This document shows, one piece after another, positions 21,816-55,165 of a stretch of 64,000 nucleotides of DNA. How positions within the stretch are numbered: the stretch's first letter is position 1; each line of letters opens with the position of its first letter. The notes below the pieces were generated by a model, which made no database searches, had not been told where the DNA came from, and saw only the letters and a program-made list of their open reading frames with translations. Position numbers and translations under genes: made by a program. Source of the DNA: Sorex araneus (lineage: Eukaryota > Chordata > Mammalia > Eulipotyphla > Soricidae); assembly GCF_027595985.1 (NCBI RefSeq), contig NC_073307.1, positions 119,812,678 to 119,876,677 on the forward strand, written 5' to 3'.

Positions 21816-22030
21816 CATAACCTGAGGATGAAGAAACCACTGATGTCTGGGAAGTTTTCCTGTGCAATTTTCCAGAATTGTGGTTTGCAGGGACTTTCCT
21901 GGGCTCCACACCTGCTTTTTCTTCTCCCCCAAGACGCCTGTAGGAGGGAGCACTTGTAGAGCAGTAGATCTCCTGAGCCAGAGGGACCAGCATCTCCACT
22001 GGAAAGGAGGGAGGGGCTGCTCCCAAAAGT
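21816..22030 (+). promoter_or_regulatory. Orphan plus-strand SAA promoter, unit B
   Basis: It contains GATGAAGAAACCACTG, a C/EBP-like TGTGCAATTTT and a perfect kB site GGGACTTTCC (21890-21899), then a pyrimidine-rich stretch. These match, in order, my memory of the human SAA1/SAA2 promoters. Where those carry a TATA box this has CACTTGTAGAGCAG, so TATA is lost. No SAA exon 2, 3 or 4 follows on the plus strand. It faces away from copy B about 5 kb to the left. Confidence 0.68.
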
Positions 22031-23950
22031 GATCGATGTAACTCAGCTTACTCAGTTCCCTCTTTCTGAATTAGATTGCAGTTTCCTTAAAACAAAACAA
22101 AACAAATTTTCTCCTCTGGGCCTAACAGATAGCACAGGGGTTAAGGTGCTTGCCTTGCAGACACCAACTCCAGTTCCGTGTCCAGCACCATATCGTCCCC
22201 CTGAGCACTGCCAGGAGCAATCCCCAAGACCCTCTCAGTGTGGCATCACGAACCACCCCTAGGACCCGTGAACCCTTGAGTACTCTCAAGGGCTGGAGCT
22301 TCTGCCTTAGACTGTGTGGTAAGATGTGCCAGGTGAGTGAAGAGCTTTATAGCAGAGAGAAAAACCACAAGATTCACATCACTATGGTCTTTGTTGTTTT
22401 CTTTAGGCTACAGCTAATGTTGGTCAGATTTGTTCCCTCTGGTTCTGCACTCAGGGATCCTACCTGGCAGTGCTCAGGGGACTCTAGAGGATGCCAGGAA
22501 TGGAACTCATATTGGTTGCTCACAAAGCAAGTGCCCTCCCTGTTGTACTATATTACGCTTACCCCTCACGAAGGTTTCTTTGTTTTTTGGTTTTTGCCTT
22601 TATGGATCACACCTGGTGATACTCTGGGGTTGTTCTACTCTGCACTCCGGAATTACTCTTGGTGGTGCTCAGGGGACTGTATAGGATTCCAGTTCCCTCT
22701 TGCATCGTTGGGCCTGAGAGGGCCAAAGTGGGGATTTAGGGTCACTTCCATGCAGATAAGCACCCAGGCCCCTGAGCCGGAAGTTGGGGTGGGAGAGAGA
22801 GACTGCTCAGAAGAGTCCGTGGACTTCCAGCCTCCTCAACTCTGTTAGCAACTGAACGCCCACCCTCCTCAGGATGACACTGTCCCTGTCTGTGTAACAT
22901 ATTCATTGTATGTTCCTCAATGCTCACTCCATTCTCTCTGATGAACATGAAAACTTCTCCTGACTACTTTCTATCCATATTCACTCTTCCTACTTCACAA
23001 GAAAAAAAAATTTTTTTTGGTGGTGGTGGTGGGGGTGGGTAGAACACTTGGCAGTTTTACTTCAGATTTTACATTTATTGTTAATAGAACCCACCATGTA
23101 AATATATAAAAATTGAACAAATAGCGATCTAGTGCACGGTTGCTCTGTAGCACTGTCATCCTGTTCTGTTGTTCATGGATTTGCTCGAGCGAGCAACAGT
23201 AACGTCTCCATTGTGAGACTTGTTACGAGTTTTGGCATATCAAATACATCATGGGCTCTTGCCAGGCTTTGCCATGCAAGCGGGATACTCTTGGTAGATT
23301 GCTGGGCTCTCTGAGAGGGACGGAGGAATTGAACCCAGTCACCCTGTGCAAGGCAAACGCCCTACTCTCTGTGCTATCTCTCAAGTTCAACATTCTAGTG
23401 CATAAATGTAAATACATGTACTATTAACAATTTTATATTTATTGTCAATGTAACATGCAATGTAAATGTACAGGATCTGAACAAAAAATCTACTACATAG
23501 CTCTTTGGTTTTATTTATTTTTTAGCCAAAGCTCCTGGGGGTGTTCAGGGGACCACATGGGATTCCGGTGATCAAATCCAGACCTGCTGTGTGCAATTGC
23601 CCTACCTGCCCTATCACTTCAGTCCCTCATTCCAGTACAAGGTTTAAGTCAGTCACGAATTTTCAGCCCCAGGTCCTATTGTGTGGAAAACTGCAGACCG
23701 TTGGTAATCTGCCCATTACCTAGATTCTAACTTCAGAGACTCTGATGCAGACGGGTGCCAGTGCACAGGTATAAGAAGCTTAAAGAACATTAGTTTAATT
23801 AATACAAGCACTGTGACAATCTTTATTAGAATTCAGCTTTCCTTTATTATAGATTTTTAAAATAATATTTAAAAAGTGCATGATTCCCGGGGCTGGAGCA
23901 ATAGCACAGCGGGTAGGGCGTTTAAAAAAACGAAAAAAGTACATGATTCC
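22030..23950. other. Downstream of orphan promoter, unit B; no SAA exons
   Basis: SINEs: plus 22115-22245, minus 22420-22550, minus 22600-22690 (truncated), minus long type 23133-23390, minus 23520-23630. 22690-22815 matches 41240-41360 in C, so about 2 kb present in C is missing here. 23890-23930 is a SINE head cut at GGGTAGGGCGTTT and joined to the next unit. The next unit's landmark TTTGGGCGATTTTGTTTAGG begins at 23950. Confidence 0.65.
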
Positions 23951-25970
23951 TTTGGGCGATTTTGTTTAGGAAAGGTTAGAGATAAAACATTGTTAGGAAT
24001 AAGTTAGCTGTACAGAGGCTCAAATTAGAAGAGAACAAATACTGAGAAAATACTAAACACACGCTCATAAGAAGCAATTTGACTTAAATCATCATATTTG
24101 TATATTCACCATTTCACTTATTCTGTGTGTCAGTCCCATGACACCCCATGACACTAGGAATTTTGCAACATTCTCATGTAACCTATAAAGATCAACTCCT
24201 GTAAATTGTATTTTGTCTTCATGTGCCCAGGACAAGAAACTTCTGCTTCCTGAATGGGTGAGAATTTCTCCACTCCACTGGAAAGGGGCAAGATATGGTA
24301 CCTGAGCACCATATCTTAGTATGGTAATTCCTGAGTGCAGAGCCAGAAGTAGCCCATGAGCATTGCCTGGTATGACCCAAAGAGGAAAAAAATAATTTTT
24401 AGTTCTACAAGATGTAAAGATTTGAAACTGGCTGTGTAATTTTAATCATGTGTATATACTTTACAATACTTAATAAGTGGGTAAGACGGTTGATTTTGGT
24501 ATCAGTATTTGACCACAGTAAAATAAAAAAAAAAAGTATGACTGAGAGAATTAGGTATCTGGTACCAATAACGGTCTTTTGTTTTTTTCTGGCCAACCTA
24601 GGACTGCTCAAGGCTACTATCAGATTACATCTTGGAGGACTGTGTAGTGCTAGAGATCGAACCCAGGCCTCCTGCATACTAGCATGTGGTCTAACCTGCT
24701 GAGCTATCTCTGGCCCTGGTACCAAGGACATTTGTTTTTGGATATTTTATCTTGGTCTCACCCAGTGTTGCTCTGGGTCTATACCGAGCTTGGTACATGT
24801 GGATCACTCATACCAGTGCTCTGGGGAGGGGGGGAGGCGGGGTGAGAGCCATGAGGTTCCAGGAATACAAACTGGACCCACATACAGAGCATGCACTCAT
24901 TCTACAGAGCTGTCTCTGGTCCCCGATAACTTTTTTTTTTAGGGAAGGGGTGGCGAGGACACCCAGAAGTGCTCAGGAGCTACTTCTGATCCTGTACTTG
25001 GTAGCTGCACCCAGGAATGTTTGGGAGGTCAAACTGTGATCTGCCATACATAAGGCAGCACCTTACCCTCTGCTGTTTCTCTCATTCTCCCAGTAACAGT
25101 CTTAAACAGTCAAGTCATATTAGATTTTGTATCACTACGCAATGTTTTGGTCATGACTGAACAAAATATGTGAGCCTCTTCCTTTTTCTTGTTTTTGATT
25201 TTGGGCTGACTCCTGGCTCTGTAACTAGGAATCACTGCTGGCAGTGCTCAGGGGAACATATGGAATGCCGGGGATTGAATCCGGGCTGGCTGCATGCAAG
25301 TAAAGAGCCCTACCCACTGAACTATAGCTCCTGCCCCCTTAGTCTCTTCCTAAACCCTTCGATTGACAGCCTTGCCACCTCTAAATCTGTGAGTTCTACA
25401 TTCCCAAGCACTCCGTAGGGAGCAGTATAAGCGCATGACAGACAAGCATCACCTCTGCCTTTTCTCAGCAATCCTCAGGATATCACAGATTCTGTTAAGC
25501 TCTCTGAGAGCCCATGGGTCAGACTGCCCTCCTGAGGCGGGGAACAGACCTAATCCCGGCCCAGGGTCTTAGCCAACAGTAGTGCCAGGTGATCCGAGCA
25601 TTTTAGGTAATCCTAAGAGGAAGAGAAGCCAAAGGCCATATTCTAGTCAACAGATAGGACGTTTGATTTGCGCCTGGGGCTCATTCCTGGCATCCATATG
25701 GTTCTCCAGCTCCCACAAGGAATGATTTCTGTGTGCAAAGACAGGAGTAAGATTCGAGCTCCACCAGGTGTGTCTCAAAAGCAAAACTAAACAAAAAGAA
25801 AAGGATTATTCCATCGCCCATTATTCTATCATTCACATTCCGTCATTGTGAACCTTTCACGATCTCCGGTCTAAGGATGAGATCTGAGGGGCTTTTAAAA
25901 AGCCTCTCCAGGGACGCGAAGATACTGAAACCCAGCTACCGATGACTCCTATGGAACAGGTCTTTAGCTC
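23950..25970. repeat. SINE-dense intergenic stretch, start of unit C
   Basis: 23950-24110 repeats 310-470 of A. Minus-strand SINEs about 24590-24715, 24745-24920, 24945-25070 and 25210-25340; plus-strand 24300-24385 and 25650-25780. No exon seen. Confidence 0.65.
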
Positions 25971-26665: not shown

Positions 26666-26989
26666 CCTGCTGCTCTAGTCCAAGATTCCTTTGTTGACGT
26701 GGGGACTGGAGTCATAGGAAGCTGGTAAGCACTTGTGTTACACACTGCCGACCCACATTGCGTTCCTAAAACTCTCTATGGTCCCTTGAGACTAGTCAGG
26801 AGTGATTCCTGAGCACTAAGCAAGGAGTAAGACCTGAGAACAGCTGGATGCCCCAGTCCCAACATATTCCTTTTTCAATTTGCTTAAGAACTTTCTCTAT
26901 GCTTATGGATGATCCCTATAGTACAGAATAGGTTCATGTACTCAGGAAATGTCCCCTACTATTTTATACCCAGACAACACCAACAAATT

Positions 26990-29900
26990 GGATTTCACAC
27001 CCGTTTATTAAACATTTCTTGCTCTTTTTTATCAAGTATCAAGAACTAGAGATTTAGTATTCAATATAGATTCAATATTTGAACTTGGGTCAGCAGCTGT
27101 CCTGCCCCACTGAGGCTCACAGCCGGGTCTCCTGAGAGCAGGTGTGGATGAAACTCAATACTTTTCAGGCAGGCCATAAGGCCGGAAGGCATTGGGGTTG
27201 TTGCCAATCCGGCCCCGTTCTTTGGGAAATGGGTCAAAGATGGTATCTTCTTGTCCGGGGCTACTGTCTCCAAACATCAAAAATTTCGTGATTCTTGGAT
27301 AATTCTCTCTGGTGACACTGGAACAGAGTGAAGGAGAAAAAGATAAACCACAGGCAGAAGAGCAATAGTCCCACCTTCGCATCTCTCTCCCTTTCCAAGG
27401 AGCAAAGAAGAGAGAAGCTGTAGGATTGGCCCTGCAGGGGCATAGACCAGCTCTGCCCACACTGACCCCTGTGTACTGGAAGAACAGCCCTGAGCTGTGG
27501 GTGGGACTCCCCCTCCCCACTGGCCTTATTCTCACTCTCTCAGGCACTCCCATCTCCTTGGGCACAGAGGAGAGTGGCAGAGGGGAAGACCACTCCCTCC
27601 ACGACTCCCTGCTGAACACAGTCAGAATTTTCTGGCCCTTCTCACCCACTCCTGAATCCTTACCTGATCCTCTAGGCCGGCCACAATCTGGCACCGCCCC
27701 TTGGCCCATCATCATACTTCCCTAGCAGATAGATTAATCTGCCACCGCCCCTTGGCCCATCATCATAGTTCCCTCACGGAAAGATGAATTTGCCAAAATT
27801 TCTGTCATTCTCCTCTTGCATGTTGTCTCTGTAGTCTCTGTAGGCTCTCCAACTGTCTCTGAGCCCTGGAATGAAAGTGATGAAACGCAGACGATCCCGA
27901 TGTGGGGAAATACATTTAAAATGCTCCTGCCCAGATTTCAAGAGCTTGGGACAAAGCTCCTGGAAGCAGATGGGCTTTGAAATGAAGGTCTGTTTCCCCT
28001 TCCTCTGGTTACCATTGAGAGACTCAGTACAAGACTGATTCTGTGTATTCCCCTCTGACCCCTGTTGCTGCTTGGACGATGGCTGTGTGTGGGGTATACA
28101 CCCCAAGCCTTGAACTATCTCCCATCTCCCCTTAGACTATGTTCTCTTAGATCTTTGTGCCTCAGTTTCTCTGTTAAGAGATGACTAAATCAAGGCTGGA
28201 GCAATAGCACAGCAGGTAGGGTGTTTGCCTTGTATGTGGCCGAACTGGGTTCGTTTCCCAGCATCATATATGATCCCCCAAGCACTGCCAGGAGTAATTC
28301 CTGACTACAGAGCCAGAAGTCACCCCTGTGCATCGCCCAGCGTGATCCAAAATGCAAAAAAAAAAAAAAAAAAAAAAGAGGGGGGGGTTGCCTACTTCAA
28401 AGGATCAAAGGATTAGAACATGAAAATAAAAATGAGCTTTTTTTGCACTTGAAAACTACTAAATGGCTCATTTGCATTTGAAAACTATAAAATGACTTCG
28501 CCTTATTAAAAATTCCATTATTTTGACTGTACTTCTTAAGCTGGGGCCAGAGACATAGGAGAGGCACTTGCCACGAACGTAGCTGCCCTGGTTTGATCAG
28601 CAGTACACAGATTCCCCCCAAGATTCACTAGGACTGATAGAGCTCTGAGGAAACCTGAGCACAGTCAGCTGTGGCCCAACCCCATCACCAAGAACTTTGA
28701 GTAACTGCTAAGGGATTGGAAACCCAACTCCCAGGTTTGACAAAGTCACTTCAGAGAGCATCAAAATGCTTAGCTCGAACGTCCATTAGGGGGCAATAGG
28801 TCCTTCTTTATATTATTATTATCATTATTTTATTTTTATATTTTTTTGCTTTTTGGGTCACACCTGGCAAGGCACAGGGGTTTCTCCTGGTTCTGCACTC
28901 AGGAATTACTCCTGGTGTTGCTCAGGGAACCAATGGGATGCTGGAAATTGATCCCGGGTGGGCCACGAGCAAAGCAAACGCCCCACAGGCTGTGCTATTA
29001 CTCCAGCCCCATTCTTTGGCAACCTCTCAGCAATAGCTAGAGGGTAGGGCATTTGCCTTTCACGGGGCCAACCTGGGTTCAATTCCTCCACTCCTCTCAG
29101 AGAGCCCGGCAAGCTACCAAGAGCCTCTCGCCCACAGAGCAGAGCCTGGCAAGCTACCCTTGGTGTATTTGATGTGACAAAAATAGTAACAGGTCTCACA
29201 ATGGAGATGTTACTGGTGCCTGCTCGAGCAAATCGATGGGCAACAGGATGACAGTGACAGTGATTTAAGGAACAAGCACCTCTGAATTCCAACTCTCATC
29301 CTCAATCCTGTTAAAACCTGGGCAACCAACTTTATGTGCCCTGGGGTCTACAGGTATGCACAGAAGAGGGAAAAAACTGGTAAAATGCTGCGATAAAATC
29401 CTTACTCAGGGCTAGAATGATAGTTCTGTGGGGAGGGCACTCCCCTTACATGTGGCAAACCCTGGTTAGGTTTCCAGTATCCCATATGGGCTCTTCCCCC
29501 ACACCCCGCCATCCCCGCATCACCAGGATTAATTTCTGAGTGCAGAGCTAGGAGTAACCTATGAATATCGCTGGGTGTAAAAGCTACTAACCCCACCAAA
29601 AAAGAATCAGAACTCCTTGTCTATCCACAGAGGGACCGTGTCCTCTGCTAGGGTAACTGCAGAGGACAGCCTGGTTACAGACACGGACCCCCCATATCCC
29701 TGGAGCCTTACCTTCACGAAAATCATCCATAAATGAGAACCAACTTTGGCTGCTGACGCAGAGAATCATAGAGCAGAAAATGATGGCCGTGGACAGTTTC
29801 ATCTTGCTGCAGGTACACAAGCAACAATGAGGCAATTCAGGCTCTTGCAATGTAAGATTGACCCAGGCTCGCATTCTGCAAAGAACTTCTACTTACATGC

Positions 29901-30588: not shown

Positions 30589-30698
30589 TATATATACAGA
30601 CACTTGTTCACAGAGCACATGGGAAGAGAGGGTTGAGGCAAAACAGTGCGTTTGGGGAAATCCCTTGTGTGCAGAGCACACATTCCCTGATTGCACAA
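30589..30698 (-). promoter_or_regulatory. SAA: SAA copy C promoter (C/EBP, NF-kB, TATA)
   Basis: Minus-strand TTGTGCAAT (30690-30698), GGGATTTCCCC (30654-30664) and TATATATA (30589-30596), with the same spacing as in B and D. Confidence 0.78.
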
Positions 30699-30699
30699 A

Positions 30700-31975
30700 T
30701 TGGTAGATGTCCCGTGTGTGCAATATGGAGTTCCCCTGCCAATTTCTGGAGTTCTTGTAAATCTGCTCGAGCCTTTCTGGAAAGGTCTGTGAAGGTCATG
30801 GCTGAGAGCTTTTGCAGGTAGGTGGTTGGGCAGCGTGGTTGTGGTTGACAGGGCTCTGTTAGCAAGGAACTGGTGTGCAAAGGAGACCTGCTCTCACCAG
30901 GGGAGACCTTGCCAAGTACTGAAGTCAGTGGACCCAGGAGTGGCTCATATGGAGTGGGGAGGAGAAAGACTGGCACTTTCTCCTGATCTGCCTCTGCCAC
31001 CCGGGACCCAAGGTTACTTGGGACTTTTGCACTTGCAGAAAGAAATTTCAGGAGTAGACAATCAGTGAAGTAAAACAGATTATATCTGGAGGTTTTTGAA
31101 GGTGTTGAGGGAAAAAGAGAGAGAGAGAGAGAGAGAGAGCTGCATTCAAGAGAGAATGTTGGCTTCTCCAATGGAGGAGAGGAATGGGTTCTGTTGGGGT
31201 TTGTGTTGTTGGAACTCCTTGGGCCTCCTGGCTCAGTGTAAAGATCATCCCTCACACATTTCAGAAAATCTAGACTCCAATTTTTCAACTAAGAATTCTT
31301 CTCTCGAGCCTCAGCAATAGGATAGCGGGTGGTGCTCTTGGTTTGCACACAACTGACCTGAGTTCAATCTCTGGGGTGAAACAATGATGAGTTCTTTCCA
31401 CTTATTGTTGTCCCATAGATCTCTTAAGCTCTGTACCTTTTGAAGGAGAGTTGGGTTTGGTCATACCTGGAGCTGCTCAGGCCTCACTCCTGGCTCTGTG
31501 CTCAGGAATCACTCCTGGTGGTGATCAGAGTACACTGTGAGATGCTGGGGATCTAACTGGAGTCAGCACAAACAAGGATCGAGTCTTAATCCCTGGAATC
31601 TCTACAGCCCATCTCTCCATTGAAAGTCTATTTTTATTTTCGCTCATATGTATTGATGCTCTTGTTTTCCTTCTCCTGGAGGTCACAGATCTGAGCTTTG
31701 GCTCCTTCCTTTATGTCCTTGAGTCTCTTGCACTGGTATCTTTTTAAATGTCAGCCACTGTAGATTTCCTCTCTGCTGAATGACTGCTCTCCTATTTTTT
31801 GGGGGTGGGGCTGTTTAGTGTACACTCAGTGGTGCTCATGGGCAACAAGTTCTGTGCTCAGAACTTGCTCCTGGAGGTGCTCAGGAGAAGCAGATAGTGC
31901 CAGGGACCAAACCAGGCTCAGCTGCATGCAAGACAACCCTCGACTCCTCTACCATCCCGAACCTTCTAATACTTT
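30700..31975. other. Upstream flank of SAA copy C
   Basis: Homologous to 17110-18590 of B, without the B-specific SINE. (AG)n at 31110-31139. A degraded minus-strand SINE at about 31440-31570. No exon. Confidence 0.55.
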
Positions 31976-31979
31976 TTAT

Positions 31980-32335
31980 CTTTTAGGGTCACACCCGATG
32001 ATGCCCAGGGGTCACTCTAGGCTCTGCACTCAGGAATTACTCCTGGAGGTGCTCAGGAGACTATATGGGATGCTGGAAATGAACCCAGGTGGGCCACCTG
32101 CAAAGTAAATGCCCTACCCACTGTGCTATCTCTTCAGACCCTTGCCTTTGTTTTTTGGGTTTTCTTTTCTTTCTTTCTTTTTTTGTTTTTGCTTTTTGGA
32201 TCACACCTGGCAATGCACTCAGGAATTATTCTGGGTGGTGCTTGGGGGACCTTGTGGGATGCTGGGAATCGAACCTGGGTTGGCTGTGTGCATGGCCAAC
32301 ACCGTACCCACTGTGCTTTAGCTCCAGCACCACAT
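31980..32335 (-). repeat. Pair of minus-strand SOR-type SINEs, unit C
   Basis: 31980-32142 (CATCTCTTCAGACCC-type end) and 32150-32335 (GGATCACACCTGGCAATGC, then GCTTTAGCTCCAGCACC). Confidence 0.8.
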
Positions 32336-32339
32336 TTTT

Positions 32340-32780
32340 TAGAAGAATAAATGCCTTTATTAGTCAAATGAAAAATGGAGGTCGTTGTAAGCGGTAGATG
32401 TAATGTGCTTACTGATGACCCCTTTCACCAACATCCTGCTCACTTCTGAGTTTCAATGCAATTATACAAATCGAAGAACTTTGTTCTGAGAAACACCCTG
32501 CTATGTCCTAGGAGGTTATGTCCTTCCTGCTTGGTTTACAGCCACAACCTCTCAACCTGTCCGAACCTGTTTTATCCAGAAGACACCCAGATCTTGAGAT
32601 CCTTATTAGTGGGTCAGCTCCCCCATCTCACCCCTTGCTTTCAAAACATGAATAAGAAGCACTTGCCTCTTCTGGCACATTTTTTCATTCACAGACGCTG
32701 TGAATTAGCTTCACGGGATTGAGATTACCCCACCTGATCTACAAGGCACGCCTTTTTCCTTTCTTGCTGTGTGAGATGTT
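32340..32780 (+). other. Unassigned block, inverted counterpart of 8503-9075
   Basis: Begins AATAAATGCCTTTATTAGTC; its first about 75 bp are also in B (18915-18990). No long frame, no recognised repeat. It lies at normal orientation between the SINE pair and the downstream block, so this is the ancestral placement and A the inverted one. Confidence 0.6.
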
Positions 32781-34365
32781 TCCAGACATAATAAACCAGG
32801 ACGATTTGAGACACTTGGCACAGAATATCCCAGGACATTGAATACATTGGAGTGCATCCATGCACACATGTATTTAAGTCCCCAAACAAAACAATCCTTG
32901 AATGGCATTTTGATAGAACTGTCCAATGTGTACAGGGTACAGATGACAATGTATAGGCTGGATACCCAGAGGTGGCAGCTGTCGAAATGTCAGCCTTTCC
33001 AGAGTACAACCACCATACTCCTAATTGTATCACACATGCAATTCTTTATGTCAGTTCATATTGTAGGACAAAGGATAGGAGATGCACAGCTGAGGAGTTG
33101 GGGGCCGTATGTTGGATATGCAGTCAGCCCGAACACTTGGCCTATGGGGTGCTGTGGATTGAACCCAGATTGGCTGTGTGCAGGGTTCAGTGCCTTAGCC
33201 ACTGTACTATCACTCTGGTCCTGCTTTGCTAAAGAAATGTCTGAGACCCCCATTAAGTCTCAGCTTTCCCAAGCAGGATGTTTCTTGTTTGGCTGCACAC
33301 TGGCAGCTTTTGTAACCTTATCTTTAGCTTGATTTACCCAGGACAGGATCCAAATCTTACACAGCAGGGGAAGGCTAGTAACCAGGTTCTAGAATTTTCA
33401 GACCCTGTGTTTTGGGAACCTTTGAAATCAGCTCTAGAGTATTCACTGCATCTCCAATATGCAAAGGGGGATGCAAATTCTTCTCAATTTCCAGCTAGCC
33501 CCCATTTGCAGGATAGCTTTAGGGATTCTGCTGTGGTAAGCTTTGTGACCAGATGTCCTATTTGGTTGTAGTGTGTGTGTGACAGGAAGGGCCACTGTCA
33601 AACAAGTAGCCTCTGCCACTGCTCCACCCAAAAAAAAGCTGTTTCTAGGTAAGCAGGGCACTGTGACTCCCTGTTCCCTCCAAGCCTCTCACAGTTGAGA
33701 GGAAAACAGTCCACTGAAGGGGAGTGAATGGTTTCATAAGGGCGTTTGAAATCATTGTCACTGGGCAAAGCTTGTATGATGCTCCGCACACATGCACTAT
33801 GGGGGATTCCATCATATTCCCTCTATCCCTTGATTGTTTTTGTCAGTGGAGAGTGTGGGACCCTTCTCTCCTGGCCTCCTCATGCAACCATTTGCATAGG
33901 AACTTCAAGATTGTTGTGGGAGGGGAAAATGTCCGGGCTGAATCTGCTGGACCAGGGCCCCAATGAGCTCTAGTGCTCCTTCAGGTGAGGGTTAGTTATT
34001 TTTGTGATTCTCTCTCCTTACTCAGTCATTATCAGTGGGCTTTGTGAGTTGACCCCTGGTACCAGTACTCACGTTTCCATGTTCTCATCGTCCTCTGGGC
34101 CCCCCTCAATTATGAATCCTGATATAGCTTCGCTGTCTCACACCACGTGATATAGTCAATTATCAAATGCAACTATGGTGTAAGGAGACTTCATGGGGTG
34201 TTCTCCGTGATGACTTTTCTTATGCAGGATCACGTCGGGGTCATCTGTGTGGTTGGCTGCCCTCCGCTCCGGGCCGTCCAGTGAGTGCCGCCGAAACCCC
34301 ATGGGCCACCCAGGTCTGCTGTGCCCTAGCAGGCAGCAGGACTGAAAAGCTCCAGCTCCACCTTT
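32780..34365. other. Unit C stretch partly missing from B and D
   Basis: No exon recognised. A minus-strand SINE at about 33060-33225 (GATTGAACCCAGATTGGCTG). 33903-34365 (TGTCCGGGCTGAATCTGC onward) is kept in D at 50975-51430 but absent from B, while 32785-33900 is seen only here. The stretch 33240-33900 is low in repeats. Confidence 0.55.
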
Positions 34366-34367
34366 TT

Positions 34368-35513
34368 TTACAATTTATTTATTTATTTTTTTATTGAATC
34401 ACCATGTGGAAAGTTACAAAGTTCTCAGGCTTAAGTCTGAGTTATACAATATTCAAACACCCATCCCTTCACTAGTGCCCATCTTCAGCACCAAAAACCC
34501 CAGTATACCTTCCGCCCCTTCCCCCCCACCCCCTACTGTATAACTGATGAAATTCACTTCATTTTCTCTTTACCTTGATTACATTCCATATTTCAGCACC
34601 AAACCCACTATTGTTGTTGGAGTTTCCCCCCAAGAAAGACAGCTGTACTACCAAGGAAGCATCTGATAATTAGTTTTCCATTGCTTAGAATGGAGAGATA
34701 TGTAGTCCCACTGCTCAAGTACATAAGTCTTTTTTTTCCTTTTTTCTTTTCCTTTTATTTTCTCACCCCTCTTCCCTCGCCTCATAGTATGGTGGATGCC
34801 ACGCTGCATTTCTCCCCGAAAATGGGAAACAACTAGGAAAGAGGGATATTCCTCTTCTCAGCTGGCGTGGGGCTATGTCTTAGTTCACAGTCTAGAGAAA
34901 TGGCTGCTACTTTGATGACCTTCAATATTTCAACAAAAAACTCACTGTTATTGTTTGGAGTTTCCCCCCAAAGTCAGACCTGCTAAAAAGGAACCGTTTC
35001 ATATTGCTGAAAATTAAGAGATGTTAATTGTTTTGGATTTCTGTATAAAGTCCAGGGAGAGTTCTGCCAGAAATTGCATAGCCCAGCTCACAGTCCCAGT
35101 GCATTGCTATAAGAAGCTGCTCTGGGTGCCAAAATGGGTTAGAAGACCTCTGGGACCGAAGTCTTTAGGAGCAGAGGGTCCGTTTCACTCTCAGCCACTC
35201 CGGATTTATCTGGGCTGAGGGTGTGCCAGTAACACCCACTTTCCATAATTGCATATTAGCCCCAAACTGCAAGAACTGTATACCTCTGGGTTAGGAGTCT
35301 TAGAAGGTGGCTCTCGCCACGTGGATATTGCTGCCGCCGCCATTTTCTGTGCAGAAAAACAGGGTGGAGAGGAAAAAATACATCCCCGGGCAGCGCGGAA
35401 TTGTAGCCCAGCTCACAGTCCCAGTGCATTGCTGGAAGAAGCTGTTCTGGATTCCAAAATGGGTTAGAAGACCTCTGGAATCAAAGTCTTTAGGAGCAGA
35501 GGGTCCTTTTTTT
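34368..35513 (-). mobile_element. Composite L1 insertion, unit C only
   Basis: 34368-34700 is an antisense L1 3' end (TTTTTTATTGAATCACCATG, CACCCATCCCTTCACTAGTG); 34910-35030 a second similar piece. 35079-35513 holds two about 105-bp direct copies (CCCAGCTCACAGTCCCAGTG at 35089 and 35408) spaced about 320 bp, with GCCGCCGCCATTTTC between, which on the minus strand reads as a YY1-like AAAATGGCGGC as in L1 5' UTRs. D has the empty site at about 51432. Confidence 0.5.
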
Positions 35514-35621
35514 TTAACCAAACTATTTTGAACTTGTTTTATTCTTCCTCTGATATTACTGAACCGAACAGAAAGAGAATTCTTGTTTTCAAATCTTCCT
35601 CGGGCAGTTTTTTCTATGTTT

Positions 35622-35794
35622 GTTTTTGGGTCACACCCAGCAATGCAAAGGGGATACTTACTCCTGGCTCAGCACTTTAGAATTACTCCTGGTGGTGTAC
35701 GGGGAGGACCATATGGGATACTGGGAAACAAACCCAGGTCTGCCACCCACACGCAAGGCAAATGCCCTACCCACTGTGTTATCACTCCAGCCAC
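35622..35794 (-). repeat. SOR-type SINE, unit C
   Basis: TTTTTGGGTCACACCCAGCA start, GTTATCACTCCAGCC end. Orthologous copy in D at 51541-51722; B has lost it in a deletion. Confidence 0.82.
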
Positions 35795-35883
35795 TCCTCG
35801 GGCAGTTTTAACGGTTTGAAATAGCTGAGGAGCTTCCAGGCCATATAAATGCCGATTATCATCACCATCACCACCACCAATAC

Positions 35884-35915
<32 letters not shown>

Positions 35916-35999
35916 CCACTATTTTGTTCCTGGTGCTACATTGGCATTTGTCATGGATCTCAAGTTCGAAGCAGCCCAGTAATGAACAAGGGCTCCTTT

Positions 36000-36960
36000 T
36001 TTTATTATTTTTTTAAATTCTTATTGGTGAATCACCTTGAGGAACAGTTACAAACTTAAGAACTCTAATGTTTGCATTTCCTTTACATTCCTCCACCAGG
36101 CCCAGTCTCTTACACCAATGTTCCCAGTATCCTTCCCACCAACCCCACCCCAACCCCACCAGCCCACCCAGCCTCTGCAGCAGGGTATTCCCTTTTGTTC
36201 TCTCTCCTGTTGGATGTTGTAGTTTGCAATAGAGGGTATTGAATGGCCATCATATTCCGTCTATAGCCTACTTTCCGCACACAGCTTTCAACCCGAGTGG
36301 ATCCTCCCAACATTCTGTACTAGGTGTTCTCTTCTCTATCTCAGCTGCCTTTTCCCCCAGCATGTGAAGCCAGTTTGCAAGCTGTGGGGAAAATCTCCTG
36401 GTTCTTATCTCTACAACTCTTGGGTGTTAGACTCCCATTCTGCAACTTTCTATTCCACATAGGAGTGCGATCTTTCTATGTCTGTCTCTCTCTTTTTGAC
36501 TCATTTCAGTTAACATGATAATATCCATGTTGTTTACTTATATGCAAATTTCATGACTTCATCTTTTCGAACAGCTGCGTAGTAAGTATTCCATTGTGTA
36601 GATATACCAAAGTTGTTTTAACCAGTCATCTCTTTTGGCACTCCTTTTTTTTTTTTTTAGATTTTGGCTATTGTAAACAGTGCTGCAATGAACATACAAA
36701 TGCAGATGTCATTTCTAGTATAGCCATCTGCCTCTTCGCGATAGACTCGTATACCAAAGTTGCAGGCTATAAAATCAATACCCAAAAGGCCATGGGTTTC
36801 CTATATGCAAATAATGAGAGAGAAGAAAGCAACGTGATAAAAGCAATACCATTCACAATTGGACCTCAAGATATCAAGGACCTCGGAATCAGCTTAACTA
36901 AGGAGGTAAAGGAATTGTATGGGAAAGAGCTCCCATTTGTAAGGTCATGTTGTTACCTCT
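36000..36960 (-). mobile_element. 5'-inverted (twin-primed) L1, unit C
   Basis: 36003-36735 antisense 3' UTR and ORF2 end; 36736-36950 sense ORF2, open and readable: VAGYKINTQKAMGFLYANNE, then IPFTIGPQDIKDLG, LTKEVKELYGKE. Uninterrupted, so the cleanest of the three copies. Confidence 0.87.
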
Positions 36961-36964
36961 GACT

Positions 36965-38165
36965 CTCCTGATTTTTGGCCATTTTCGAACTTCTTTTGTT
37001 GGAGTAGCTAGATCCGAGATGATTTAAAGGGCAGACTCGGCCAGGAGAGATGGGAGAGCAGATGGGAGACTTGCCTTTACTGAGGTCAACCCAGCTCGAT
37101 CCCTGAAACCCCTATAGTCTCCTGTGCATCACCAGGAGTAATTCCTGAGTGCAGAGCCAGGGTGAGGCCTGAGCACCGCCAGGTGTGAACAAAAAGAAAT
37201 AAAAATAAAAAGGCAATGAGAATGGAGCAGAATATGGAGACAAGATGGAGGAGAGGGGTATGCATATTGGACCCAACAGAAATAGAACCATAGTTGGGAA
37301 GCACCAGAGGAAGTGGAGGATAAAGAGCTAGCAGTGTACTTCAGGCACGAGACACGTGCAGACAGGACCAACTCTTATCCCTAGTTTTCCTCCTTAAGAG
37401 CATATTATGATATGGTTAGTATTGCAGTTTTGCCCCCTCTTACAAACTTTTCTACATGCATTATGGGCTGTCGTACTACACAAGCAATTCACTTATATAA
37501 TCCACACCCATCAGCCATCCAGTGAAGGGCTACATAAAACCCCCATCATGTGATGCAATTTCCTGATCCACCTTAATATTAGAGTATAAAAATTACTGCT
37601 TGAGCATAATAGAGCCAACTATACTTCCTTGTGTTGGAGGGGGTAGGGTGAGAGGGACACACTTAGCAGTATTGAGGGTTCATTCCTGGCTTAGTCCTCA
37701 GGGATCCTTTTGCTGGCAGGGGGCTCTTAGGGATCACATGGGTATATGGTTCAAACCCAGATAAGCTATGTGCATGGCAAATGCCCAACTCGATGTACTC
37801 TCTGGTTCCTCAATAATAGTCCCTGTGTCTGACACCCTTTTGTTTTCATGAGATGTGGTGGTTGATCTTTCTGAATTTTATGGACAAGGCGCTACACAAA
37901 ATTCTGTCTCTTTGTTCAGCCACCCAGAGAGTTCTCTCCCTCAACTCCCTTTCCTGCCATCTTGGCCCCACTTCCTTTTTGATTTCACTTTCTTGCTTTG
38001 TTTTTGGCCCACCCAGCAGTGCTCAGGGGTTACTTTGTACTCCTGGTAGTGCTCGGCGCAGTTCATATAGAATGCAGGGTCAAACCTGAGTCGGCCTCCT
38101 GCAAGGCAAACACCTTACTTGCCAGACTGTCTCTCTTGGCCTTGGATTTCATTTCTGACACCTTC
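36965..38165. other. Intergenic stretch before the orphan promoter, unit C
   Basis: Homologous to 20340-21600. SINEs: plus 37040-37195, minus 37670-37810, minus 38010-38140. No exon. Confidence 0.6.
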
Positions 38166-38384
38166 CAGATACACCAGCAGGGATCATCCTGAAAAAACAG
38201 ACTTCAAGCCTTCGAGGTGGAGTCTCTACCCCAACTCCCACTGTCCAGCAGCCTAGATGCCCGAATCCAGGTGCTCCAATATGCACCATGACCTCAGGTG
38301 CCCTCTCAGCCAGGCTGCCCCTGTGAGCACAGCTGGACACCTGGCCTAGGTCACAGTCAAACAGCAAACAGCCCTGTGTGCTCA

Positions 38385-38625
38385 GGTTTACACAACCAGG
38401 ACCATAACCTGAGGATGAAGAAACCACTGATGTCTGAGTAGTTTTCCTGTGCAATTTTCCAGAATTATGGTTTGCAGGGACTTTCCTGGGCTCCACACCT
38501 GCCCTTTCTTCTCTCCCCATGACGCCTGTAGGAAGGAGCACTGGCGGGGCAGTAGATCTCCCGGGCCAGAGGGACCAGCATCTCCACTGGAAAGGAGGGA
38601 GGGGCTGCTCCCAAAAGTGATCTAT
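38385..38625 (+). promoter_or_regulatory. Orphan plus-strand SAA promoter, unit C
   Basis: Same block as at 21.8 kb; kB site GGGACTTTCC at 38477-38486. The TATA position reads CACTGGCGGGGCAG. No coding exon lies downstream before the next unit. Confidence 0.68.
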
Positions 38626-38629
38626 GTAG

Positions 38630-43250: not shown

Positions 43251-43254
43251 CTAC

Positions 43255-44782: not shown

Positions 44783-47827
<3,045 letters not shown>

Positions 47828-48665
47828 CTTGCTGCAGGTACACAAGCAACAATGAGGCAATTCAGGCTCTTGCAATGTAAGATTGACCCAGGCTCACATT
47901 CTGCAAAGAACTTCCACTTACATGCATAGATTGGCATGTAGATAGATAATAGATGTGGAGAGATATGTCCTGATCATCTAAGATACATTTAGAATATTTA
48001 TTCTTTGTTTCTACTTGTTTCTTCAGAATCCTAGCACTTTTCTAGGATTTACTAGAGGCTTGATACTCACAGTAATTACACTGGGCTTTCAGTGTAAACC
48101 GTTGTCCATTCCTAGCATCCCTCCTCAGCTCTGAGATCTACTGCCTCGCAGGTTTTCCTGGATCCATGGGAGGATCCTACCTCTGAAATAGCCCCTGAGT
48201 TTAAAACTCCACCAATATTTGTGGTGTGTCTCCTCTAGCCACCACTGGCTGCCCATCGAAGGCACAAACTACATAATTTCTAATGATTTTCGAGACTGAA
48301 AAGTATTCATGGGGCTGGGAGTTAACTCAAAGGGCTGGAGCACCTGCTTTGCTTCCACAGGTGCCCCAATATTTTGAACTTGGGCTGGCTGGGACGGGGG
48401 CGGCTTCTAGGCACTGTCAGAGTGACCCTGGTGATTCGAGCACCATTTCTGAGCAGAGTCATAGAGCACTGGGAGCGGTCCCCAGAAGCCTGAATAGTGC
48501 TGGGAGGCCCAGCAACAACAATGCCAAAATGAGAAGCACATCTGAGGAGACCCAATGGTCAGAAAGTTCAGTCAGGAAGGATGCAGCCCAAGAACGCTGT
48601 TGAGGAAGAGGATTGCCCCCCACCCCCACCTACAGAAGGAAACTTGGAATGTTCTAGAACCTCAC

Positions 48666-48742: not shown

Positions 48743-48852
48743 TATATATACAGACACTTGTTCCCAGAGCACATGGGAAGAGAGGGTTGAGGCAAAACAG
48801 TGCGTTTGGGGAAATCCCTTGTGTGCAGAGCACACATTCCCTGATTGCACAA
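48743..48852 (-). promoter_or_regulatory. SAA: Acute-phase promoter of SAA copy D (C/EBP, NF-kB, TATA)
   Basis: On the minus strand, in order towards the gene: TTGTGCAAT, a strong C/EBP site (48844-48852); GGGATTTCCCC, a perfect NF-kB site (48808-48818); and TATATATA (48743-48750). The order and close spacing match the well-studied SAA promoters, where C/EBP-beta and NF-kB act together under IL-1 and IL-6. The kB site lies about 95 bp above the inferred start. Confidence 0.82.
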
Positions 48853-48854
48853 AT

Positions 48855-50000
48855 TGGGAGATGTCCCCGGTGTGCAAGATGGAGTTCCGCTGCCAATTTC
48901 TGGAATTCTTGTAAATCTGCTCGAGCCTTTCTGGAAAGGTCTGTGAAGGTCATGGCTGGGAGCGTTTGCAGGTAGGTGGCTGGGCAGCATGGTTTGACAG
49001 CCTCTGTAAGCAAGGAACTGGTGGACAAAGTAGACCAGCTCTCACCAGGAGAGACCTCGCCAAGGACTGAAGTCATTGGACCCCTCGAGGTGCTCATTTG
49101 GAGTGCGGAGGTGTAGGACGGTCACTTTCTACTGATCTGCATTTGCCACCCAGGACCCAGCTTTACTGGGTTCTTATCTCACTGGCAGAAAAGAATTTCC
49201 GGGGTAGACAAGCAGTGAAGTAAAATAGATTATATTTGGAGGTTTTTGAAGGTGTGGAAGGAAAGATTGAGAGAGAGAGTGAGAGAGAGAGAGAGATAGA
49301 GGGAGAGAGAAAGAGAAAGAGAGAGAGATGCATTCAAGAGAGAACACAGGCTTCTCCAAGGGCAGAGAGCCATGTGTTCTGTTTGGGTTTGTTTTGTTGG
49401 AACTCCTTGGGCCTCCTGGCTCAGTGTAAAGATCATCCCTCACACATTGGGGAAAATATAGACTACAATTTTTCCGCTAAGAATTCTATTTCAAGCCTGA
49501 GCAATAAGATAGCGGGTGGTGCACTTGGTTTGCACACAACTGACCTGAGTTCCACCCCTGGGGTGAAACAATGATGAGTTCTTTCCACTTATTGTTGTCC
49601 CATAGATCTCTTAAGCTCTGTACCTTTTGAAGGAGAGTTGGGTTTGGTCATACCTGGAGGTGCTCAGGCCTCACTCCTGGCTCTGTGCTCAGGAATCACT
49701 CCTGATGGCGATCAGAGGACCCTGTGAGATGCTGGGGATCTAACTGGAGTCAGCACAAACAAGGATCGAGTCTTAATCCCTGGAATCTCTACAGCCCATC
49801 TCTCCATTGCAAGTCTATTTTTATTTTCACTCATATGTATTGATGCTATTGTTTACCCTCTCCTGGAGGTCACAGATCTGAGCTTTGGTTCCTTCCTTTA
49901 TGTCCTTGAGTCTCTTGTACCTTTATCTTTTTAAAAGTCAGCTACTGTTGATTTCCTCTCTGCTGAATGACTGCTATCCTTTTGCTTGGGAGGGTGTTTA
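48855..50000. other. Upstream flank of SAA copy D
   Basis: Homologous to 17110-18420 and 30700-31810. (GA)n tract at 49266-49329. A degraded minus-strand SINE at about 49640-49745. No exon. Confidence 0.55.
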
Positions 50001-50495
50001 GTCTACACTTAATGGTGCTCATGGGATACTCTCAAATCTATGCTCACCGCTTGCTTCTAAGGTGCTCAAGAGAAGCAGGTAGTGCCAGGGACCAAACCAT
50101 GCTCAGCTGCATGAAGACAATCCTCAACTCCTCTACTATCCCGAACCTTTTAATTTTTTTTTTATCTTTTAGGGTCACACCCGATGATGCCCAGGGGTCA
50201 CTCTTGGCTCTGCACTCAGGAATTTACCCTGGCAGTGCGCAGGAGACCATATGGGATGCTGGAAATGAACCCAGGTGGGCCACCTGCAAAGTAAATGCCC
50301 TACCCACTGTGCCATCTCTCCAGACTCTAGTTTTTGTTTTCTGGGTTTTTTTGCCTTTTCGGTTACATTGTTGATGTACTCAAGAATTTGTTATGGTGGT
50401 GCTTGGGGGGCCATGTGGGATGCTGGGAATCAAACCAGGGTTGGCTGCACGCATGGTCAACACCCTACTCGCTGTGCTTTCGCTCCTGCTCCACT
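50000..50495 (-). repeat. Three minus-strand SINEs, unit D
   Basis: 50000-50130 (worn), 50165-50325 and 50330-50495, matching the trio in B and C. Confidence 0.75.
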
Positions 50496-50525
50496 TTTTT
50501 TTTTAACATTAAATACCTTTATTAG

Positions 50526-50692
50526 GGGCCGGAGCGATAACACAGCAGGTAGGGCGTTTGCCTTGCACGCGGCCGACCCAGGTTCGATCCCCAGAATCCC
50601 ATATGGTCCCCCAGGCACCGCCAGGAGTAATTCCTGAGTGCAAAGCCAGGAGTAACCCCTGACCATCGCTGGGTGTGACCCCAAAAGCAAAA

Positions 50693-50729
<37 letters not shown>
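50526..50729 (+). mobile_element. Young SOR-type SINE with (AAAT)n tail, unit D only
   Basis: Near-consensus: GGGGCCGGAGCGATAACACA head, GGTTCGATCCCC box B, AGGAGTAACCCC tail, then (AAAT)n. Perfect 15-bp duplicates AAATACCTTTATTAG at 50511-50525 and 50730-50744. Confidence 0.92.
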
Positions 50730-50731
<2 letters not shown>

Positions 50732-50762
50732 ATACCTTTATTAGTTAAATTAAAAATAGAGG

Positions 50763-50968
50763 TCTCCAGGATGTTGGAGGGCAGTCATTTTGGTCTTGTA
50801 GTTGGTGAAGAATAGGCGAGCGTTGCGAATATTTTTTCCAGCTTCTGCCACATCGGCCAACACTGCTATTCTTCTCTCTTTGAGGTCTTCTTTTATCACA
50901 TCTCTGCACAGTTTTTTGAACTCGACCTCAGCTTGTGGTTGCTTGAGGCTTGTGCCAAACCACATTGA
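50763..50968 (-). mobile_element. RTE-type non-LTR retrotransposon fragment, nematode-like
   Basis: An open 69-codon stretch on the minus strand reads FKKLCRDVIKEDLKERRIAV, LADVAEAGKNIRNARLFFTN, YKTKMTAL. This basic, helical segment resembles the linker between endonuclease and reverse transcriptase in RTE elements, specifically the nematode form. A horizontally acquired nematode RTE (RTE1_Sar) has been reported in the common shrew; this is probably a piece of it. Assigned from memory of the family, not by a search. It sits where C has 32385-33900. Confidence 0.55.
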
Positions 50969-50974
50969 CAAATG

Positions 50975-51540
50975 AAGATTATTGTGGGAGAGGAAATGTC
51001 TGGGCTGAATCTGCCGGACCAGGGCCCCAATGAGCTCGAGTGCTCCTTCAGGGGAGGGTTAGTTATTTTTGTGATTCTCTCTCTCCTTACTCAGTCATTA
51101 GCAGTGGGCTTTGTGAGTTGATCCCTGGTATTTGTACTCACTTTTTCATGTTCTCATCATCCTCTGGGTCCCCTCAATTATGAACCCTGATATAGCTTCG
51201 CTGTCTCATTCCGCGAGACATTGCCAATTATCGAATGCACCTATGGTGTAAGGAGATTTCATGGGTGTTCTCCGTGTTGACTTTTCTTATGCAGGATCAC
51301 GTCGGGGTCATCTGTGTGGTTGGCTGCCCTCCACTCCGGGCCATCCACTGGCCGCTGGCCCCGAGAGCCGTGGGCTGCCCAGGCCGGCTGTGCCCTGGCA
51401 GGCAGCGGGACTGAAAAGCTCCAGCCCCACCTTTTTATTTTTTTTAATCAAACTATTTTTGAACTTGTTTTATTCTTCCTCTGATATTATTGAACCGAAC
51501 ACTAAGAGAACTCTTGTTTTCAAATCTTCTTCAGACAGTG
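50975..51540. other. Non-repetitive segment shared with unit C
   Basis: Matches 33903-34365 of C (AGGATCACGTCGGGGTCATC in both), then 35513-35610 after the point where C has its L1. No exon recognised. Confidence 0.55.
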
Positions 51541-51722
51541 TTTTTTTTCTTTTTGGGTCACACGGGGCAATGCAAAGGGGTTACTGACTCCTGGCTTATG
51601 AACTGAGGAATTACTCTTGGCGGTGTACGGGAAGGACCATATGGGATGCTGGGAAACAAACCCAGGTCTGCCACCCACATGCAAGGCAAATGCTCTACCC
51701 GCTGTGCTATCACTCCGGCCCC
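51541..51722 (-). repeat. SOR-type SINE, unit D
   Basis: TTTTTTTTCTTTTTGGGTCA start, GCTATCACTCCGGCCCC end. Orthologue of 35622-35794. Confidence 0.85.
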
Positions 51723-51905
51723 TACTCAGCAATTTTAACAGTTCAAAATAGCTGAGGAATTTCCAGGGCCAGATAAATGCCGATTATCATCACCATCACC
51801 GCCACCAACGCCATCATCATCACTGCCACATTTTGTTCCTGGTGCTACATTAGGATTTGTCATGGACCTCATTTCAAATTAGCCCAGCAATGAACAAGGG
51901 CTCCT

Positions 51906-51909
51906 ATTT

Positions 51910-51943
<34 letters not shown>

Positions 51944-51945
51944 AT
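51906..51945. repeat. (AT)n microsatellite
   Basis: TATATATATATATACATATA pattern directly at the T-rich 3' end of the L1 at 51950. Confidence 0.9.
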
Positions 51946-51949
51946 TTTT

Positions 51950-53460
51950 TTTAGATTTTTTAAGAATTGTATTATTGAATCACCATGAGGGATATTTAAA
52001 ACTTATGAGCTTTCATGTTTGCATTTCGTTTACATCCCTGGACCAGTGCCCATTCTCCTCCACCAATGTTCCCATTATCCCTCCCACCACCCCCAACCCA
52101 GCCCCACCAAGCCACCCTACCTCTGAGGCAGCGCATTCCCTTTTCTTCTCACTCCTGTTGGATGATGTAGTTTGCAATAGAGGTATCTAATGGCCATAAT
52201 GTTTGGTCTATAGTCTACTTTCAGCACACAGCTTTCAATCTGAGTGGATCCTCCCAACATTCTCTACTAAGTGTTCCTTTCTCTATCTCAGCTGCCTTTT
52301 CTCCCAGCATGTGAGGCCAGTTTCCAAGCTGTAGGGCAAACCTTATGGTTCTTATCTCTACTACTCTTGGGTATTAGTCTCGAATTCTGCTACTTTATAT
52401 TCCACAAATGAGTGCAATTTTCTTTTTTTTTATTAAAAAAGCATTTATTATCACTCTCAGAAAAGTGAAAATCAAAACAACAATGAGGTATCACCTCATA
52501 CTAGCAAGAATGGTCTATATTTTTTTTTATAATTTATTTATTTTTAATTAGAGAATCACCGTGAGGGTACAGTTACAGATTTATACACTTTTGTGCTTAT
52601 ACTTCCCTCATACAAAGTTCGGGAACCCATCCCTTCACCAGTGCCCATTCTCCACCACCCGTAAACCCAGCGTCCCTCCCACCCTCCCCAATCCCATCTT
52701 CCCCCCACCCCACCCTGCCACTGTGGCAGGGCATTCCCTTCTGTTCTCTCTCTCTAATTAGCTGTTGTGGTTTGCAATAAAGGTGTTGAGTGGCCGCTGT
52801 GCTCAGTCTCTATCCTTCATTCAGACCGCAACTCCCTTCCCCCACATGGCCTTCGACTACAATGTAGTTGGTGATCGCTTCTCTGAGTTGCCCTTTCCCC
52901 GGAACGTGAGGCCAGCCTCGAAGCCATGGGGTCAACCTCCTGGTACTTATTTCTACAGTTCTTGGGTATTAGTCTCCCAATGAGTGCAATTTTCTATGTC
53001 TGTCTCTCTCTTTCTGACTCATTTCACTGAACATGATCATTCCATATTGATCCACTTTTATGCAAATTTTGTGATTTCATCTTTTCTAACAGCTGCATAG
53101 TATTCCATTGTGTAGATATACCAAGGTTTTTTTGAACCAGTCAACTCTTGTGGGGCACTCCGGTTTTTTCCAGATTTTGGCTATTGTAAACAGTGCTGCA
53201 ATGAACATACAAATGCAGATGTCATTTCTAATATAGCCATTTGCCTCTTTGCAATAGACTCGTATAGCAAAGTTGCAGGCCATAAAATCAATACCCAAAA
53301 GGCCATGACTTTGCTATACAGAAATAATAAGAGAGAAGAGTGACATGAAAAAAGCAATCCCATTCACAATTGGACCTCAAAATATCAAGTACCTCAGAAT
53401 CAGCTTAACTAAGGAGGTAAAGGACTTGTATGGGAAAGGGCTCCTATTTGTAAGGTCAAG
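51950..53460 (-). mobile_element. Twin-primed L1 of unit D, split by a nested L1
   Basis: Antisense 3' part 51950-52423 and 52996-53250 (reverse strand MFIAALFTIAKIWKKPECP, the ORF2 C-terminus), then sense ORF2 from about 53255 to 53460, as in B and C. Interrupted by the element at 52424-52979. Confidence 0.85.
52424..52979 (-). mobile_element. Nested L1 insertion with 16-bp target duplication, unit D only
   Basis: Perfect duplicates ATGAGTGCAATTTTCT at 52408-52423 and 52980-52995. Inside, 52440-52508 is sense ORF2 (GTGAAAATCAAAACAACAAT, the KIKTTMRYHL region) and 52515-52979 antisense 3' end, so this element too looks 5'-inverted. B and C have the empty site. Confidence 0.85.
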
Positions 53461-54690
53461 GTGTTACCTCTGACACTACTGACTTTGGGAAATTATCGAT
53501 GCTCTTTTGTTGGAGAAGCAAGATCAGAGATGATTTTAAAGGCAGACAGGAGCTGGAGAGATGGGACGGCAGGTGGGACACTTGCCTTGCCTGAGGCCAA
53601 CCTAGCTCGATCCCTGGCAACCCCTATAGTCTCCTGTGCATCACCAGGAGTAATTCCTGAGTGCAGAGCTAGGGTGAGCCCTGAGCACTGCTAGGCGTGA
53701 ACTAAAAGAAATAAACATAAAAAGGCAAAGAGAATGGAGAGGAATAGTGAGACAAGGTTGAGGAGAGGGGTATGCATATTGGACCCCATAGAAATAGAAC
53801 CATAATTGGGAAATACCCGAGGGAATGAAGGATGAAGATCTAGCAGTGTCCTTTAGGCACGAGACACATGCAGACAGGACCAACTCTTATGCCTAGTTTG
53901 CCGCCTCAAGAGCACAGTATGATATGATTAATATTGCAGCTCTGCCTCCTCTAACAAACTTTTCTACATGCATTATGGGCTGTCACAATACACAAGCAAT
54001 TCACTTAGATAATCCACACCCGTCAGGCGTCCACTGAAGTGCTACATAAAATCCCACATCATGTGATGCAATCTCCAAATTTATGTTAACATAAGAGTAT
54101 AAAAATTAGAGCTTGAGCACAATAGAGCCAACTACAATTCCTTTTGTTGGAATGGGTAGGGTGAGAGGGACACATTTAGCGGGATTGAGGGTTTATTTCT
54201 GCCTCTGTCCTCAGGAATCCTTTTGCTGGCAGGGGGTGTTCAGGAGTCACATGGTTACAGGGTTCAAACCCAGATAGCTTTGTGCATGGAAAATGCCAAA
54301 CTCGCTGTACTATCGGGTTCCTCAATAATAGTTGCTTAGGCTGATGCTCTCCTGATTTTTCCAGACGTGGTGGTTAATCTTTCTGAATTTTATGGACAAG
54401 GCGCTACACAAAATTCTGTCTCTAATTCTGTTTCATTGTTCAGCTACCCAGAGAGTTCTCTCCCTCAACTCCCTTTCCTGCCATCTTGGCCCCACTTCCT
54501 CTTAGATTTCACTTTGTTTGTTTTTGGCCCACCCAGTAGTGCACATGGATTACTTTTTACTCTGCATTCAGGACTTACTCCTGGCAGTGCTCAGGGTATC
54601 ATATAGAATGCTGGGTATCGAACCTGAGTTGGCCACCTGCAGGCAAACACCTCCCTGTCAGACTATGTCTATGGCACTTGGATTTCATTT
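53461..54690. other. Intergenic stretch before the orphan promoter, unit D
   Basis: Homologous to 20340-21600. SINEs: plus 53550-53705, minus 54180-54320, minus 54525-54670. No exon. Confidence 0.6.
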
Positions 54691-54924
54691 CTGACAACTG
54701 CCAGATACACCAGCAGGGATCATCCTGAAAAAAACAGACTTCAAGCCTTCGAGATGGGGTCCCTGTCCTCCCAAACCCCACAGTCCAGCAGCCTAGATGC
54801 CCGAATCCAGGTGCTCCAATATGCACCATGACCTCAGGTGCCCTCTCAGCCAGGCTGCCCCTCACAGCACAGCTGGACTCCTGGCCCAGGTCACAGGCAA
54901 ACAGCAAACAGCCCTGTGTGCTCA

Positions 54925-55165
54925 GGTTTACACAACCAGGACCATAACCTGAGGATGAAGAAACCACTGATGTCTGAGTAGTTTTCCTGTGCAATTTTCC
55001 AGAATTATGGTTTGCAGGGACTTTCCGGGGCTCCACACCTGCCCTTTCTTCTCTCCCCATGACGCCTGTAGGAAGGAGCACTGGCGGGGCAGTAGATCTC
55101 CCGGGCCAGAGGGACCAGCAGCTCCACTGGAAATGAGGGAGGGGCTGCTCCCGAAAGTGATCGAC
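54925..55165 (+). promoter_or_regulatory. Orphan plus-strand SAA promoter, unit D
   Basis: Third copy; kB site GGGACTTTCC at 55017-55026, again without TATA (CACTGGCGGGGCAG). It is the partner, head to head, of the intact copy D about 6 kb away. Confidence 0.68.

Follow-up and report, generated by a model that had tools for sequence, protein, structure and literature searches.

Duplicated C/EBP–kB blocks in the SAA gene cluster of the shrew Sorex araneus as candidate distal enhancers

The SAA gene cluster of the shrew Sorex araneus contains, besides its minus-strand genes, a set of duplicated plus-strand blocks in which a C/EBP-like octamer is followed by a perfect kB site. These blocks are most likely distal C/EBP/NF-kB acute-phase enhancers that were duplicated along with the SAA genes, a reading that we hold tentatively and that is suggested by the motif grammar they share with the cluster's own SAA promoters, by their placement, and by a partial signal of constraint. 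Three of the blocks lie in the 64,000-nucleotide stretch of DNA that was analysed (the window, C6:119812678-119876677, from a 2.4-Gb genome in 65 contigs, for which all genome-wide match counts are lower bounds). The window and its neighbours together make up a 264-kb stretch, R (C6:119732678-119996677), in which the R coordinate is the window position plus 80000.

The blocks and their sites

All three blocks of the window are on the plus strand, and each contains the 16-mer GATGAAGAAACCACTG (exact at 21827, 38414 and 54954), the C/EBP-like octamer TGTGCAAT and the perfect kB site GGGACTTTCC (at 21890, 38477 and 55017, the only exact matches in the window), just as they had been described in the first-pass annotation. 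With the core taken as -200 to +150 relative to the kB site, they are copy D (core 21690-22039, octamer 21861-21868, kB site 21890-21899), upstream of a type V SAA copy; copy B2 (core 38277-38626, octamer 38448-38455, kB site 38477-38486), upstream of a type III SAA copy; and copy A3 (core 54817-55166, octamer 54988-54995, kB site 55017-55026), upstream of a type I SAA gene with open exons 2-4. In every case the octamer begins 29 bases ahead of the kB site. A 301-bp core query recovers 11 copies of the block from the genome, all on the plus strand and all within the SAA cluster; the three blocks of the window are one duplicated sequence and no independent finds. All 11 copies have the perfect kB site, which occurs nowhere on the minus strand of R, and 10 of the 11 have the octamer. 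The 16-mer, on the other hand, is not special within the blocks, because it is exact in only seven copies and changed in four. Another exact match to it, at C3, was discarded as a stray, the 301-bp core having no match there.

Predicted sites for liver and inflammation factors, all of them consensus matches, are clustered in the block. In a scan of copies A3, D and E, two FOXA-like sites and an HNF4-like half site were found at -129 to -107 in A3 and D, and the FOXA-like sites are retained in E. In A3 the FOXA-like sites are two adjoining TRTTTRY matches on the minus strand (54897-54910), with equal offsets in the other two copies.

A composite shared with the SAA promoters

Counting the query itself, the type I promoter at R 72120-72620 has 11 matching regions on the minus strand, at 89-100% across alignments of 409-507 bases. 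These genuine promoters carry the C/EBP octamer, a kB site, and a TATA pattern 68 bases after the kB start. Three of them lie in the window, all on the minus strand: type V (16988-17095, with the octamer at 17088-17095, the kB site at 17054-17063 and TATA from 16995), type III (30589-30697; octamer 30690-30697, kB site 30655-30664, TATA from 30596) and type I (48743-48851; octamer 48844-48851, kB site 48809-48818, TATA from 48750). A pattern scan for TATA succeeded in 11 of 11 promoters and, over the 120 bases that follow the start of the kB site, in none of 11 blocks. At promoter R 160875 the kB anchor was displaced in that scan, although TATA was still matched, and the octamer-kB composite was confirmed separately. 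Further kB-like sites, around R 50750, 169303 and 216909, were rejected; they belong to a repeated unit of their own that has no SAA promoter.

Blocks and promoters have the C/EBP-like octamer and then the kB site in identical order, with 21-25 bases between them; the kB site begins 29 bases after the octamer start in blocks, compared with 32-33 bases in promoters. The order that the first-pass annotation likened to the human SAA1/SAA2 promoter is thus found in the SAA promoters of this cluster. When R was searched for TGTGCAAT followed, after 15-35 bases of any sequence, by a kB consensus, the composite was found in 21 places, namely all 11 promoters (minus strand) and 10 of the 11 blocks (plus strand), and nowhere else. 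In 60 dinucleotide shuffles of R it occurred 0.07 times on average and never more than once. In the whole genome, an exact composite built with GGGACTTTCC was matched 10 times, each time at a block (reversed-pattern control, one), and one built with GGGATTTCCC also 10 times, each time at an SAA promoter (reversed-pattern control, none). A looser C/EBP pattern, which gave one plus-strand and 11 minus-strand matches against a shuffle mean of 1.98, is uninformative on the blocks, whose first base it mismatches. What blocks and promoters have in common is a motif grammar; of homology there are faint hints, but it could not be demonstrated.

Placement relative to the genes

From promoter kB site to block kB site the distance is 4.8 kb (17063 to 21890), 7.8 kb (30664 to 38477) and 6.2 kb (48818 to 55017) for the three blocks of the window, in keeping with the 5-8 kb from the minus-strand gene that had been proposed for them. 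A block is present before the next gene upstream in 10 of 11 promoter-bearing SAA copies, versus one of four promoterless copies (p 0.03, scored by coordinates on copies that are not independent), and in the promoter-bearing copies the promoter-to-block distance is about 5-11 kb.

Constraint, gene conversion and passenger DNA

The core is of low divergence in most copies. The copies A3, D and B2 diverge by 2-6% between -200 and +200 and by 7-15% in the ten windows of 100 bases that lie upstream; the six such windows that follow, from +200 to +800, stand at 10%, 5%, 7%, 10%, 15% and 16% in turn. In each pairing of these three copies the motif falls inside the low stretch, and divergence is 0% at -100 to -50. 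Across ten copies, 33 of 325 non-CpG, gap-free columns are variable in the core, compared with 128 of 594 downstream (Fisher p 1e-5), in a count that omits copy E, whose downstream part is replaced after about +160. The downstream region of this comparison contains interspersed repeat sequence. Tree length is 0.204 in the core versus 0.290 downstream. The promoters of four gene types have a low-divergence stretch comparable to that of the block. A sliding profile of all 11 copies is not relied on, the flanks being non-homologous beyond about -350 and +800.

Does this low divergence reflect selection? It need not, because gene conversion between the copies is visible. A possible, though on balance unlikely, alternative is that the blocks are passenger DNA: a chance C/EBP-kB pair in intergenic sequence that was duplicated with the SAA unit, kept alike by gene conversion, and functionless. 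A number of observations count against the enhancer reading, and several of them favor this one directly. A mosaic of C-type and D-type sequence is seen in copy C2, whose kB site lies to the right of the window at C6:119904527; this is a sign of gene conversion between units, and the tree topologies of core and downstream sequence disagree. In copy E (R 233286) the core differs by 10-12% from A, B and D and by 15-16% from C, about the background rate (its upstream flank differs by 12-18%), and the octamer has two changes despite a gene copy that is open in exons 2-4. Equally low divergence is found at +350 to +450 (2-4%, copy C2 included, in a stretch that overlaps interspersed-repeat sequence), in an intron 1 window (48118-48218, some 600-700 bases past the kB site of the type I promoter) that is about 1% divergent among four gene types and as low as the promoter, and in windows near R 125500 and 129700. 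When the core was ranked against the other 350-base windows of each unit pair, it fell in the lowest 5% in four of 13 pairs, at 0.05-0.14 in three, and at an unremarkable 0.41 or more in six; a fourteenth pair, E-C3, gave no core data. The kB site has no variable columns out of 10, where 13 of the 50 columns directly downstream and 5 of the 21 spacer columns vary, but this invariance alone is not significant, because about a fifth of the core columns vary. Blocks also remain next to gene copies with an exon stop as read (B2, C1, C2 and C3). Finally, because the blocks are one duplicated family, the composite amounts to one independent event, with a chance nearer the 0.07 composites that shuffling predicts per 264 kb than the genome-wide counts suggest, or lower still once the near agreement in spacing is taken into account.

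Against passenger DNA, on the other hand, stand the position of the low stretch, which holds the motif and its invariant -100 to -50 interval in every one of the three pairs, and the composite itself, which shares the order and nearly the spacing of the SAA promoters and whose exact forms were recovered from no other locus of the 2.4 Gb. The first-pass suggestion that the blocks persist as inflammation-responsive enhancers survives, with evidence on both sides: the promoter's C/EBP-to-kB composite, the FOXA-like sites of the scanned copies and the low-divergence core are in its favor, and copy E, gene conversion and the other low stretches detract from it.

Promoter origin

A second alternative is that the blocks are promoter relics: each unit would descend from an SAA pair that stood head to head, of which the plus-strand partner disappeared and left behind a promoter worn down to its factor sites, now silent or serving as an enhancer. 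The identical motif order and near-equal spacing would be expected from such an origin, and a fully decayed promoter would look like the blocks. The label "SAA promoter", however, under which the blocks were first annotated, finds no support in alignment. No block-promoter homology was detected with blastn; nhmmer profiles of promoters matched no block among 85, 77 and 73 matches, and profiles of blocks matched no promoter among 63 and 56 (self matches counted). The Smith-Waterman score of the consensus block against the promoter was equalled by 132 of 500 shuffles, and those of single copies were reached by 218 (E), 81 (A3) and 44 (D) of 500, compared with 221 of 500 for the reversed block. 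Extension anchored on the kB site was weakly positive, in some pairs only: in four block-promoter pairs the score was reached by 1, 13, 1 and 7 of 40 shuffles to the left and by 0, 0, 1 and 39 of 40 to the right, so that at most one shuffle in 40 matched it in two pairs on the left and three on the right, while the remaining pairs were at the null. In region tests of 20 block-promoter pairs, p was 0.01-0.35 for the spacer, 0.04-0.25 for the 60 bases downstream and 0.69-0.98 for the 60 bases upstream.

The comparison with human SAA1/SAA2 DNA covered a single sequence, the forward primer of 24 bases that PMC2765618 gives for human SAA1; the primer presumably lies in the promoter, although the paper does not say so. 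This primer and the block both contain TGCAGGGACTTTCC, which speaks for a promoter origin, and the local scores against it are 13-14 for three blocks, compared with 9-10 for three promoters of the cluster. The TGCA extension of the 10-base site is nevertheless weak evidence.

Of the plus-strand gene itself no trace was detected: plus-strand SAA exons 2, 3 and 4 have no profile matches at E<1e-3 over the 264 kb (the non-coding exon 1 was not searched by itself), and all 26 Pfam SAA matches genome-wide, 13 of them above the cut-off in a search that scored best candidates only, are on the minus strand of this cluster. The first-pass observation that no plus-strand exons follow the blocks is borne out accordingly. 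One candidate exon relic on the plus strand, at R 103149 (tblastn E 0.86 and 0.086), was rejected because it lies within an interspersed repeat that has other copies between minus-strand SAA exons. In an ungapped search, no inverted copy of a gene body was found in the window, where 17 inverted pairs of at least 150 nt were present, the longest of 262 nt. With no exon relic detected in R, no inverted gene body found in the window and no TATA pattern, the proposal of a relic head-to-head pair lacks positive support and is doubtful. The terms "orphan" and "oppositely oriented" hold only in so far as the non-palindromic factor sites point in that direction, and an enhancer needs no direction. Distinctly improbable is the more elaborate version in which the promoter of a lost head-to-head SAA gene was turned into an enhancer and amplified to 11 copies, such that a promoter-derived enhancer array would boost the SAA array.

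The slimmest chance is given to the blocks being start sites from which an inducible non-coding RNA or an enhancer RNA is made on the plus strand, since active kB-C/EBP enhancers commonly make short RNAs but nothing in the sequence singles out an RNA start, and the pattern scan for TATA was negative in every block.

How the blocks might act

If the blocks are indeed enhancers, each would have been duplicated along with the SAA gene below it. The FOXA-like sites, at about -120 to -107 relative to the kB site, may open the block in liver cells; after IL-6/IL-1 signals, C/EBP and NF-kB would then occupy the octamer-kB composite, and the block would contact the minus-strand SAA promoter, with its same composite and TATA, across about 5-11 kb. 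The sites, their copy number and placement, the shared composite and the low-divergence core of most copies are observed; binding by the factors, contact with the promoter, activity as an enhancer and the identity of the target are inferred. Should this be true, the cluster would offer one enhancer in 11 natural variants, next to open and broken copies of a single acute-phase gene, a setting in which to test whether the effects of duplicated enhancers are additive and in what way the motif grammar of a promoter recurs at a distance. Otherwise, the blocks are ordinary duplicated regulatory or passenger DNA.

The SAA gene copies

The cluster comprises about 15 SAA copies and gene fragments of several types, arranged in tandem on the minus strand. 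DNA profiles of the exons gave, on the minus strand of R at E<1e-3, 14 matches for exon 2, 17 for exon 3 (including two copies each split in two) and 15 for exon 4. Exons 2-4 are open in five copies (exon 2 at R 27614, 71296, 127827, 185359 and 227472), and stops are present in several others. In the window, on the minus strand, are a type IV copy (5174-7784), with a stop in exon 4, only 28 bp that match the promoter query and no block before the next gene upstream; exons 2-4 of a type V copy (13673-16069); a type III copy with a stop in exon 3 as read (27158-29802); a type I copy with exons 2-4 open (44786-47827); and a second type V copy (61717-64000), of which exons 3-4 are inside the window and exon 2 is past its end.

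Two units are of irregular structure. At 9392-10718 of the window, upstream of a promoterless SAA copy, is a truncated unit that retains, partly doubled, sequence which in other units stands upstream of the block, and the block itself is absent. Left of the window, at R 61156-62000 (C6:119793833-119794677), is a type III SAA copy without a promoter match, the one promoterless copy that has a block. This block, B1, is reversed and only about 0.8 kb separates it from exon 2, downstream of it, compared with about 8.7 kb in the sister copy in the window.

Comparison with known systems

SAA genes occur in head-to-head pairs in human and mouse. The shrew blocks resemble these in that a plus-strand, promoter-like block stands opposite a minus-strand SAA gene, but here no plus-strand gene or exon relic was detected. 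A description of the blocks was not found among the matches listed in the literature on SAA distal enhancers, on shrew SAA, or for the block sequence strings. Acute-phase SAA promoters use C/EBP plus NF-kB, according to the review PMC6117975, and both these and the cluster's own promoters are the closest likeness to the blocks, which have C/EBP and then kB in the cluster promoters' order with 21-25 bases between. Unlike them, the blocks have no TATA pattern, detectable exon or significant alignment, and they lie about 5-11 kb away in the opposite direction. Bovine SAA3 has an upstream enhancer at -2571 to -2338, as cited in PMC6117975. Its distance and gene class differ from those of the shrew blocks; compared by description only, it is similar to what is proposed here, being a positive element located kilobases upstream of an SAA gene.

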